Below, piece after piece: positions 1 to 21,572 of a stretch of 26,514 nucleotides of DNA. The stretch lies in the IMG/VR virus record IMGVR_UViG_3300025086_000197, positions 1-26,514 of that record; one strand, 5' to 3'. The notes under the pieces are model-generated. The model made no database searches, was not told where the DNA came from, and saw only the letters and a program-made list of their open reading frames with translations. Numbering within the stretch: position 1 is the first letter of the stretch; every line of letters starts with the position of its first letter. A program made the position numbers and the translations under genes. Origin of the DNA: a virus.

Positions 1-25
1 GTCAAGTAAAAAAGAAATTATTTTT
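1..25. repeat. Left arm of a 25-base inverted repeat
   Basis: This segment is the reverse complement of 361-385 with a single mismatch (position 14), so 24 of 25 bases agree. The right copy is the AT-rich upstream element plus most of the -35 hexamer of the promoter at 381-408. By symmetry, the left copy should hold the upstream element and -35 box of a promoter firing leftward, with its -10 box outside the window. The repeat itself is directly visible; the divergent promoter is inferred. Confidence 0.8.
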
Positions 26-78
26 GGGGTTCCGAGATCAACTCTTTTGAGATTGTCAAATTATTTTTTAATTATTTC

Positions 79-87
79 TGTGGATAA
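79..87 (-). promoter_or_regulatory. Perfect DnaA-box sequence in an AT-rich tract
   Basis: TGTGGATAA is the exact reverse complement of the consensus DnaA box TTATCCACA. It sits in a very AT-rich stretch (about 59-120) that would melt easily. A weaker resemblance, TTATACACC, occurs at 331-339. One perfect nine-base match is suggestive only. Its position between two inverted promoter arms and beside large inverted repeats makes a replication-origin role plausible. Confidence 0.4.
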
Positions 88-137
88 CTTTTAGTAATAT
101 TTTATTACTTGATTTTTTATTGTGTCCGTAGTAAAAC

Positions 138-160
138 GACTCCTTAGAGTCTTTAAAGAC
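138..160. repeat. Overlapping hairpin and 12-base palindrome
   Basis: GACTC (138-142) and GAGTC (147-151) form a perfect five-pair hairpin with a CTTA loop. GTCTTTAAAGAC (149-160) is a perfect palindrome that shares bases with the hairpin's right arm. As RNA the two would compete; as DNA the palindrome could be a dimeric protein-binding site. Function is unknown. Confidence 0.6.
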
Positions 161-164
161 ATAG

Positions 165-260
165 GGTTACCAATAGGTGCACTGCCGTGCAGGGTGCCTA
201 GGGGGCTACCCTATATATGATTACACGGTAGTGCTAAAATATTGAGATAGGGTGTAAACC
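165..260. repeat. Large nested inverted-repeat structure
   Basis: Four helices nest inside each other: 165-170 with 254-260 (six pairs, one bulged A), 171-175 with 240-244 (five pairs), 179-189 with 224-234 (eleven pairs, one G-U), and 191-198 with 204-212 (eight pairs, one bulged T, five-base loop). The two inner helices are strong and G/C-containing in an otherwise AT-rich region. The element lies upstream of the rightward promoter, so it is not part of that leader. It could be a cruciform, an origin element, or a small RNA made from an unseen promoter. I do not recognise a known RNA family. Confidence 0.65.
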
Positions 261-290
261 ACAGCTGCCCTTTATAGTGTTGTCGGTTAC

Positions 291-344
291 ATATAGGTAT
301 ATATAAGGCTCCCCTAAGGGGGTAATTACATTATACACCTGTAT
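291..344. repeat. Second hairpin with a CCCC/GGGG core
   Basis: ATATAGGT (291-298) can pair with ACCTGTAT (337-344) over eight pairs, one of them G-U. Inside, CCCC at 311-314 faces GGGG at 318-321 across a TAA loop. No T-tract follows, so it is unlikely to be an ordinary intrinsic terminator. The left arm belongs to a 14-base direct repeat: GGTTACATATAGGT at 285-298 matches GGTTACCAATAGGT at 165-178 at 12 of 14 positions. Confidence 0.45.
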
Positions 345-360
345 GCCATTTTGTCAATAT

Positions 361-385
361 AAAAATAATTTATTTTTTACTTGAC
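361..385. repeat. Right arm of the 25-base inverted repeat
   Basis: This is the partner of 1-25 and covers the A/T-rich upstream tract and the first five bases of the -35 hexamer at 381-386. A second, shorter inverted pair, TTGTCAA (351-357) and TTGACAA (381-387), also uses the -35 box as one arm and could be an operator overlapping the promoter. Confidence 0.8.
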
Positions 386-408
386 AAATCTGCATACAAC
401 CCTATAAT
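381..408 (+). promoter_or_regulatory. Near-consensus sigma-70-type promoter for the structural operon
   Basis: TTGACA (381-386) and TATAAT (403-408) are both perfect hexamers, separated by 16 bases, one fewer than the ideal 17. The upstream tract is A/T-rich and resembles an UP element. The expected start point is about 414-416, exactly at the base of a 13-pair stem. No other strong promoter is visible before the tail genes, so this one probably drives the whole packaging and head module using host RNA polymerase. A nearby TTGTCAA/TTGACAA inverted repeat could bind a regulator. Confidence 0.8.
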
Positions 409-605: not shown

Positions 606-797
606 ATGAGTGAATATAACGAACTAAAACAAGCAACAAAAGAAATAGAAGTATTAAAGTCAGAAATTAAGACATTAAGAGAACAAACCAACTTTGTAAT
701 GAACAAATTAGAGAAAGCTATTGAAGATAGGATAGTTTTAAGAGCAGAGAATTTTAAATTAAAACAAAATATGATACAAACGCAAATAGCCAGTTGA
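606..797 (+). CDS. Small coiled-coil protein, first gene of the operon
   Basis: This 63-residue protein has no recognised family. Most of its length is a predicted coiled coil: residues 8-55 show heptad-like spacing of Leu, Ile and Val among Lys and Glu (IEVLKSEIKTLREQ, then KLEKAIEDRIVLRAEN). It starts at an ATG ten bases after a good GGAGG site (591-595) and is the first gene after the structured leader. Its TGA stop overlaps the TTG start of the next gene. A short helical protein at this place could be an assembly or regulatory factor that oligomerises, but nothing in the sequence identifies a partner. It is unlikely to be a chance frame, given the ribosome binding site and the coupled downstream gene. 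Confidence 0.75.
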   Translation: MSEYNELKQATKEIEVLKSEIKTLREQTNFVMNKLEKAIEDRIVLRAENFKLKQNMIQTQIAS

Positions 798-13554: not shown

Positions 13555-13582
13555 AAGGGGGGGAGTTATACTCCCCCTTTTT
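13555..13582 (+). terminator. Strong intrinsic terminator after the head genes
   Basis: GGGGGAG (13559-13565) pairs perfectly with CTCCCCC (13571-13577) around a TTATA loop and is followed by TTTTT (13578-13582). Extra A-T and G-T pairs extend the stem to 13555. This is a textbook Rho-independent terminator. It lies 11 bases after the decoration protein gene and 44 bases before the tail adaptor, so it probably lowers expression of the tail genes relative to the head genes. No convincing promoter is visible between it and 13627. Confidence 0.93.
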
Positions 13583-19476: not shown

Positions 19477-20946
19477 ATGGTTGCTATACTTCCTGCTAAT
19501 AGTGTATCTGATAGTGGATATGAAGTAAGTAATTCTCTTATGTTCACTCCTACTGGAAGTGGCTCATATTTAAATAGAACTACAAGCACAGCAACAAACA
19601 CAAAAATATTTACATACTCAGTTTGGTTAAAAAGAAGTAATCTTGGAGATATCAATATATTTAATGGTGATGATGGCTCAGATGGAAATAATAATTTTGA
19701 TGCCTTTTATTTTAGAGCAGACCATAAAATATTTTTATATGGATATGCGGGTGGAGATAGAATTAGTATAGTTACTAATAGAGTTTTTAGAGATGTGTCA
19801 GCTTGGTATCATTTAGTTTTAGCTTGTGATACTACCCAATCAAGTGCGAATGATAGAATAAAATTATATGTTAATGGAGTTCAAGAAACTAGTTTTGACC
19901 CACATACTCAACCATCACAAAATATGGAAACTTATTTTAATGGTAGTTCAATAAGACAACAAATAGGAAGATACCCAGATTCTAGTTCTTTGCACTTTGA
20001 TGGGTATATGTCAGAAATAAATTTTGTTGATGGGCAACAATTATCACCTACTTCATTTGGAGAGTCTGATGATAATGGACAATGGGTTCCTATAAAATAT
20101 ACAGGAACATATGGAAACAATGGTTTTTATCATGAGTTTAAACAAACAGGAACAAGTCAAAACTCTAGCGGTATAGGTGCTGATACATCAGGTAATGATA
20201 ATCATTTCGCAGTAAATAATATTGCCTCTACAGATGTAAGCACAGATACTTGTACTAATAATTTTATGACTTTAAATTCTCAAGCAAAGGCTTCTTTAGC
20301 AGGAAACCCAACAAAAGGAGCTTTAGTTCATACAGGTCAAACTTCTGGTTATGCTCAAACTGTATTAGGTACTTTAGCATGGCATGGTAGTGGTGGAAAA
20401 TGGTATTGGGAAATGGAACAAGGTGGAGGAGCTGCAGGTAATTATGGGTTTATTAGAACTGATAAACCTGATGGTACTAATGGAGTTGGCAATATTATAC
20501 AGACTACAAGTTCCACACCTACAGAATGTGTAACTTATGATTGGGCTTGGGGAGTAAATCCTTCAAACGGAAATAGTAGGCATGATAATAATAGTGTTTC
20601 CTATGGTTCTGGTTTATCTAGTGGTGACCACGGAATGGTTGCTGTTGATACAGTAGCGGGAAAAGTATGGTGGGGTAAAAACGGAACTTGGTTTAATAGT
20701 GGTGACCCTGCTAATGGTACCAATCCTGCTTTTACAGATAGTGATATAACAGAAGGACTTTTTACAATATATAGCATTGTGTCAGATACAGATGGTAGAA
20801 TTAAAAGATACAATTTTGGTAATCCCCCAACAGATTTTGCAATAGCAAGTGGTAATTCAGATGCAAATGGATATGGTAATTTTGAATATGCACCACCATC
20901 AGGTTACTTTGCACTATGCACTAAAAATTTAGCGGAGTTTGGATAA
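19477..20946 (+). CDS. LamG- and SPRY-like adhesin
   Basis: The 489-residue protein appears to contain two carbohydrate- or protein-binding beta domains. Residues 20-190 read as a LamG/concanavalin-A-like fold (FTYSVWLKRSNLGDINIFNG, SAWYHLVLACDTTQSSANDR, IKLYVNGVQETSFD, HFDGYMSEINFVDGQQLSPT). The AWYHLVLxxD and DGYMSEINFVDG elements are typical. Residues 300-450 look SPRY-like (GKWYWEMEQGGGAAGNYGFI, SSGDHGMVAVDTVAGKVWWG, KNGTWFNSGDPANGTNPAFT). This combination is common in marine-phage tail genes. It is likely a receptor-binding protein or a side fibre. It is coupled to the next gene by TAATG. Confidence 0.75.
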   Translation: MVAILPANSVSDSGYEVSNSLMFTPTGSGSYLNRTTSTATNTKIFTYSVWLKRSNLGDINIFNGDDGSDGNNNFDAFYFRADHKIFLYGYAGGDRISIVTNRVFRDVSAWYHLVLACDTTQSSANDRIKLYVNGVQETSFDPHTQPSQNMETYFNGSSIRQQIGRYPDSSSLHFDGYMSEINFVDGQQLSPTSFGESDDNGQWVPIKYTGTYGNNGFYHEFKQTGTSQNSSGIGADTSGNDNHFAVNNIASTDVSTDTCTNNFMTLNSQAKASLAGNPTKGALVHTGQTSGYAQTVLGTLAWHGSGGKWYWEMEQGGGAAGNYGFIRTDKPDGTNGVGNIIQTTSSTPTECVTYDWAWGVNPSNGNSRHDNNSVSYGSGLSSGDHGMVAVDTVAGKVWWGKNGTWFNSGDPANGTNPAFTDSDITEGLFTIYSIVSDTDGRIKRYNFGNPPTDFAIASGNSDANGYGNFEYAPPSGYFALCTKNLAEFG

Positions 20947-21572
20947 TGCCAAGAAAAGTAGATGGTTGGACACTTTCAGGTTCTAGTGAAGATAGTCAAC
21001 CTGAGTTTAAAAAAAATTTAAAAGATTATGTTTATGTTCAAAAAAAGTTTATACCTGAAACAGTTTGCAAACAAAGTATAAAAGAAATAGAAGATATATC
21101 GTTTCAAGAACATAAATTTTATGACCCTGAAACTAAAACATATAAAACTAGAGCAGGTTCTCATGAACTACACATGAGTTGGGATAATATATCAACAACA
21201 CAAGTTATAATGGAAAACCTACATAATGCTATAAGTAATTATCAAAGTTATGTAAACTTACCTTGGTTTAAAAATTGGAATGGTTATAGTCCTATAAGAA
21301 TAAACAAGTATGAAGAAAAAAGAGAAATGGCTATGCATTGTGACCATATAAGAGATATGTTTGATGGAGAAAGAAAAGGCATACCTATAGTTACAATATT
21401 AGGTATTTTAAATGATAATTATAAAGGGGGTAATTTTATATTGTTTGATGATTATGATGTAAATTTAAAAGAAGGGGATGTTTTAATATTTCCTTCTGTA
21501 TTTATGTACCCTCATAAAGTAAAACCTGTAACAGAAGGAATAAGATACTCTTTTGTATCTTGGGTATGGTAA
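20946..21572 (+). CDS. 2-oxoglutarate/Fe(II)-dependent oxygenase, prolyl-hydroxylase-like
   Basis: This 208-residue protein carries the double-stranded beta-helix signature of the 2OG-Fe(II) family: His 131 and Asp 133 in MAMHCDHIRDMF (HxD), distal His 190 in MYPHKVKPV, and Arg 200 in EGIRYSFVSW, which would bind 2-oxoglutarate. The KYEEKREMAMHCDH and KGGNFILFDDYDVNLKEGDV segments, with GDVLIFPS before the distal His, match prolyl 4-hydroxylase-like members. All iron and cosubstrate residues are present, so it should be active. It lies between two adhesin genes, so modification of a virion protein is a reasonable guess; nucleic acid, a host protein or a small molecule are alternatives. Such genes are known in marine phages, often near tail genes. 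Confidence 0.85.
   Translation: MPRKVDGWTLSGSSEDSQPEFKKNLKDYVYVQKKFIPETVCKQSIKEIEDISFQEHKFYDPETKTYKTRAGSHELHMSWDNISTTQVIMENLHNAISNYQSYVNLPWFKNWNGYSPIRINKYEEKREMAMHCDHIRDMFDGERKGIPIVTILGILNDNYKGGNFILFDDYDVNLKEGDVLIFPSVFMYPHKVKPVTEGIRYSFVSWVW

Follow-up and report, generated by a model that had tools for sequence, protein, structure and literature searches.

A conserved divergent promoter locus flanked by a structured leader and a group-wide element in an HMO-2011-type phage and its relatives

Phages of the HMO-2011 type are dominant in the ocean, the HTVC033P subgroup being among the most abundant of them (PMC9038755). Promoters, terminators, intergenic elements and non-coding RNAs go unmentioned in the main text of the paper on this subgroup (PMC9038755). 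Our literature search returned nothing on promoters or non-coding RNA of HMO-2011-type phages, the pelagiphage transcriptome paper covering other phage types, and no description of their early versus late expression order. Elsewhere, phage HK022 carries putL and putR, mutually similar ∼70-nt two-stem RNAs behind divergent early promoters (PMC9378689). In translational riboswitches and other cis-regulatory mRNA leaders, a conserved folded domain of the 5' leader is accompanied by alternative helices with a strand in common and by a helix that covers the Shine-Dalgarno sequence. A structured regulatory RNA, the glutamine riboswitch, occurs in marine phages of streamlined hosts, namely methylophage Melnitz and Pelagibacter phage Mosig, where it belongs to a known family (glnA) common to bacteria (PMC9004378).

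Here we describe a divergent promoter hub that is conserved in relatives and lies at the junction of the two divergently transcribed arms of such a phage; to one side it has an undescribed structured leader, to the other an element found group-wide. We consider it probable, if by no means certain, that this is an HMO-2011-type central control region, in which one of a pair of sigma-70 promoters, P_R, would feed a structured switch leader and the other, P_L, a conserved left element.

The phage and its two arms

The window is the whole virus record, a linear fragment of 26,514 bases with a G+C content of 34.9%. Its TerL matches best that of Pelagibacter phage HTVC033P (65% identical), then those of HTVC115P, HTVC103P, Roseobacter CRP phages and HMO-2011. 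The phage is of the HMO-2011 type by its terminase, portal and capsid families and by the group gene order; the group's DNA polymerase with a DnaJ-like insert falls outside the fragment, and the class assignment is accordingly one by TerL, portal, capsid and gene order. The host is probably SAR11: HMO-2011-type subgroups VII–IX have a G+C content of 31.9–35.4% and probable SAR11 hosts (PMC9038755), and the phage shares with the HTVC033P subgroup its TerL (65%), the two-arm layout and the low G+C. A nucleotide-level search of isolate phages with positions 1–1400 gave no match, so that protein and profile searches were needed. No tRNA genes were found in the window. Among its other genes are one for a 2OG-Fe(II) oxygenase family protein amid the structural genes (20946–21572), annotated in HTVC033P too, and one for a 101-aa HNH-endonuclease-like protein close to the start of the structural operon (1078–1383). 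At 13557–13577, between open reading frames just behind the capsid gene, the sequence GGGGGGGAG..CTCCCC makes a strong hairpin that has a T-rich tail on either strand, a possible bidirectional terminator.

In HTVC033P the primase, helicase and polymerase genes run in one direction and the structural genes in the opposite one, and two long relatives of the window have the same layout. Gene direction turns at the same place as GC skew. In the two long relatives local skew minima fall at 38,058 (leader at 37,818–38,004) and 31,982 (leader at 32,629), while in HTVC033P the minimum, at 52,885, is ∼1.3 kb off the promoter pair near 51.6 kb. The divergent layout and the skew minima near the locus indicate that one control region serves both arms. 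This part of the preliminary description of the DNA stands; the element it held responsible for leftward transcription, a left-hand copy of the promoter at positions 1–25, does not, and is replaced by P_L.

A back-to-back promoter pair and an inverted repeat beside it

P_R lies on the plus strand at 381–408 and points toward the structural arm; P_L, which had been missed, lies on the minus strand at 357–330. Both are perfect sigma-70 promoters, TTGACA-16-TATAAT (12/12), and both are kept in relatives. Just 23 bases (358–380) separate their –35 elements, so that the promoters face away from each other across a single A/T-rich spacer, which in relatives measures 8–61 bases and is 75–100% A+T. 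Shuffled windows are expected to hold 0.08 perfect promoters each, versus two here, side by side.

Conservation was assessed on 32 unique loci selected for the promoter pair and the leader motif. P_R is 12/12 in 31 and P_L in all 32 of these, with 16-base spacers in 32 (P_R) and 31 (P_L). Because this set had been selected for the pair, conservation was retested starting from the leader alone. Among 31 distinct leader-like sequences found by motif, blind to promoters, 30 have the back-to-back pair, P_L being 12/12 in all 30 and P_R in 29 (11/12 in the remaining one). The sole sequence lacking it, L099, also has no match to the leader model R1. The pair is present in HTVC033P, HTVC115P and HTVC103P as well, some spacers there being of 17 bases, and absent from the examined stretches of HMO-2011, CRP-1, CRP-3, CRP-212 and one spring phage. 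Judging by these sequences, transcription is predicted to start from both promoters. The proposal that a single factor co-regulates the arms comes down to both promoters resembling host sigma-70 promoters. Other promoter-like sequences were noticed in relatives: a second class (TTGACAT/TTGACAC, 17-base spacer, looser –10) in the early arms of L032, L041, L091 and L117, and further rightward promoters, perfect and with a spacer of 16 bases, within the structural arm (L015:15531, L059:20795 and L064:20293), which have no counterpart in the window.

The inverted repeat from which the left-hand promoter had been deduced is real. Positions 1–25 are the reverse complement of 361–385 with one mismatch (24/25), and the 335-base core between them is non-coding as described, with no open reading frame of at least 60 aa within 26–360. 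In 200 dinucleotide shuffles of positions 1–420 the longest one-mismatch inverted repeat reached at most 17 bases (mean 11.4) versus the 25 observed, so the repeat is not due to chance. Nor is it a contig-end artefact: two independent contigs, L012 (with a 25/25 repeat) and L084, run on past the left arm. The right arm overlaps the spacer and the –35 element of P_R; it had been correctly recognized as an A/T-rich element plus –35, though 'near-consensus' undersells a perfect promoter.

That the two 25-base arms are outward-firing promoter copies which arose by inversion of the core, as first proposed, is nevertheless extremely improbable, despite a repeat so far above chance. Beyond the left arm in L012 and L084 the best hexamer at spacings of 14–20 matches TATAAT at 3/6 positions. 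The adjoining gene in these close relatives points rightward instead of leftward; its end, that of a gene of ∼250 codons, is followed by a hairpin-plus-T terminator and then by the arm. Most relatives have no left arm: it is found in L012, L084 and, at 20/25, in L015, and all others are at background level. The core, moreover, keeps a single orientation in all relatives, which leaves its inversion unsupported. The left arm is thus, as far as its sequence tells, no promoter. By eye it belongs to a repeat tract whose units each comprise AGATCAA-n-TTGTCAA and an A/T run; one unit lies at 35–59, and L012 and L084 have a second copy immediately beyond the left end of the window. The arm is probably an extra partial copy of the spacer/–35 sequence within this tract, and is confined to a few close relatives.

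The gene left of the control region itself varies in direction, being rightward in close relatives (L012:89–850, plus strand) and leftward in another clade (L032:3656–4453, minus strand). As the two proteins are homologous (31% identity over 246 aa, E = 1e–18) in spite of the opposite directions, this gene has been inverted or re-acquired.

The rightward leader

Downstream of P_R, positions 412–605 of the plus strand would form a structured 5' leader of ∼190 nt (covariance model R1 matches 411–594). The first gene behind it (606–797, plus strand), as given by the open reading frame list and by relatives, codes for a protein of 63 aa in which a DRI-LRAEN motif is conserved. The 32 leaders align well. 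RNAalifold alone finds 26 pairs in them, 13 of which are changed on both sides; a fuller structure including a pseudoknot has 35 pairs, of which 15 are changed on both sides, and 95.5% of its cells are paired. In a control with the partner strand slid by 1–3 columns, 38–44% of cells are paired and 4–6 pairs are changed on both sides. The leader consists of a hairpin domain (416–487) with P1 (416–424 with 479–487), P2 and P3, and of a pseudoknot domain (492–558) with P4 (492–499 with 551–558), P4b (499–502 with 515–518) and P5 (507–511 with 529–533). Most of the covariation is in P1, and P4b, being invariant, is uninformative. A conserved structured leader with covariation upstream of a gene, as expected of a riboswitch, is therefore found here.

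R1 detects one copy per genome in three long relatives, in each at P_R. In HTVC033P it gives no leader at E below 0.1, and a P1-like hairpin is all that can be seen by eye, so the full leader is not group-wide. Searches further afield were negative. Rfam covariance models give chance-level matches to the locus and no family fits. A host origin of the leader found no support either: a leader pattern scan of a genome collection gave scattered matches, none titled SAR11, and R1 has no match in 385 genomes, a class sample around a Rhodospirillales genome. Unlike the riboswitch of Melnitz and Mosig, then, the leader belongs to no Rfam family, glnA included. It differs from translational riboswitches and related leaders in general in that it has no known ligand and precedes a small phage gene, not a metabolic one.

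Two further helices bear on how the leader might work. Just downstream of P4 lies a second CCAUUGG copy, with which the 3' strand of P4 (CCAAUGG) is able to pair too, forming P6 (550–574; CCAATGGA at 550–557 with TCCTTTGG at 567–574) as an alternative to P4. The strand before this second copy differs by clade (UUUUCC, UAUCCU, CUUCUC) and pairs with the Shine-Dalgarno region to form P7 (565–598). In the window P7 joins TATCCT (565–570) to AGGATA (593–598), overlapping the Shine-Dalgarno sequence at 591–595. With one strand common to P4 and P6, and with P6 and P7 competing for adjacent bases, the helices are laid out as in a translational switch. P7 is possible in 16/16 distinct strand pairs, and the strands' own partners beat swapped ones (2/10,000 permutations were as good, in a test that does not control for relatedness). 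P6 has 89.6% of cells paired with covariation not above shuffles, which makes the alternative state the weakest step.

It is most likely that the leader works as a translational RNA switch. According to this model P_R would drive the structural and packaging operon through the leader. When P4 closes the pseudoknot domain, P7 could form and so mask the first gene's ribosome-binding site. If the shared strand instead engages its downstream partner in P6, the anti-Shine-Dalgarno strand would be pulled away and translation could start. Such switching, in response to some trigger, is what the competing helices suggest. The promoters might also be just ordinary strong divergent ones, with a structured leader that stabilises the mRNA or fixes the level of translation and does no switching. 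The absence of P6 covariation beyond shuffles would agree with this, as would minimum free energy folds of six leaders, all of which give the P4 plus P7 state alone. We find this somewhat unlikely, because a pseudoknot, a shared strand and a cover over the Shine-Dalgarno sequence, kept across diverged leaders, are more than stability needs.

The leftward element

On the other side P_L would transcribe a non-coding stretch bearing the group-wide conserved element. The predicted RNA extends on the minus strand from 323, a start estimated 7 bases after the –10 element, to 128, where a weak terminator-like hairpin (151–138 plus tail) is taken as its end. A terminator for the leftward RNA is seen in the window, in L012 and L088 and, in strong form, in HTVC115P, and is not clear elsewhere, so that it was dismissed as a general feature. 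Sequence conservation extends over the ∼150 bases that P_L would read (stretch 179–324), with the core motif GTGGTTTACA on the minus strand at 253–262 and with GTTWACA, TTTT and GT at nearly fixed spacing. A sequence-only model finds the element at the same place and in the same direction in CRP-1, HMO-2011, HTVC033P and the spring phage, with E-values of 3e–6 to 3e–4 over eight records, and hence in isolates infecting SAR11, SAR116 and Roseobacter. RNAalifold and helix scans of several alignments gave no well-supported helix on this side, which makes a function of the RNA indistinguishable from one of the DNA. An H-type pseudoknot that can be seen by eye in the window's leftward sequence (UUACAC..CCCUAU..GUGUAA..AUAGGG) does not recur in relatives, and BoxA-like and DnaA-like readings of the core motif are not kept across clades; all were rejected.

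Further left, 280–550 bases from P_L, L084 (297–395) and likewise L090, L032, L098, L104, L105, L021, L059 and L112 carry an inverted repeat, GTRGTTTMC...GGAAACYAC, in which changes on one side are matched on the other. Its halves are mostly 90 bases apart start to start (100 in L059 and L112; 32 in L012), and the first resembles the left core motif GTRGTTTAC. In cultured HTVC115P (L118:7285–7406) a perfect leftward promoter is followed, ∼90 nt on, by a strong 9-pair intrinsic terminator, a combination whose sequence makes it a candidate small RNA.

The layout resembles that of HK022 in that an RNA element follows each of two divergent sigma-70 promoters. This raises the question of whether both RNAs are antitermination elements like putL and putR, which bind RNA polymerase while nascent and enable it to read through terminators. 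Rightward transcription must indeed cross ∼26 kb, including the terminator-like site at about 13557–13577. However, ∼70-nt two-stem RNAs alike on both sides, with the dimensions of put (PMC9378689), are not what is found here: the two sides have no evident similarity, the right leader is ∼190 nt long, pseudoknotted and ends over a Shine-Dalgarno sequence, and the left side has no supported structure. We therefore rate antitermination as quite unlikely.

For the left element the most likely role is one in cis, on early-side events, e.g. replication initiation or early transcription. One specific form of this would be a transcription-primed replication origin in the left half of the locus, where RNA from P_L enters G/C-rich and then A/T-rich DNA and primes synthesis. 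An origin here would fit GC-skew minima lying at the locus or within ∼1.3 kb of it in three genomes, the A/T-rich DNA with a DnaA-box match (TTATCCACA, minus strand, 79–87), and the retention of the left element even where the promoter pair is missing. But skew also tracks gene direction, which turns there too, some relatives lack the DnaA box, and in HTVC115P the P_L transcript would end at the strong terminator just short of a weak match to the element. A primed origin is for these reasons a tentative idea, to which we give limited credence.

Taken further, the leader would be a new phage-only class of pseudoknotted switch that times translation of the structural operon in one of the dominant phage groups of the ocean, while the left element, on the far side of the promoter spacer, marks a transcription-primed origin; we think this combination unlikely. 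If it were true, a single locus would set the timing of replication relative to virion assembly, with no phage repressor involved. To our knowledge, few RNA switches that time virion genes are known, and if the leader senses something, it would represent a new RNA switch family of this sort. The conserved divergent pair, the covarying leader and the group-wide element provide the exact nucleotides on which these possibilities can be tested.
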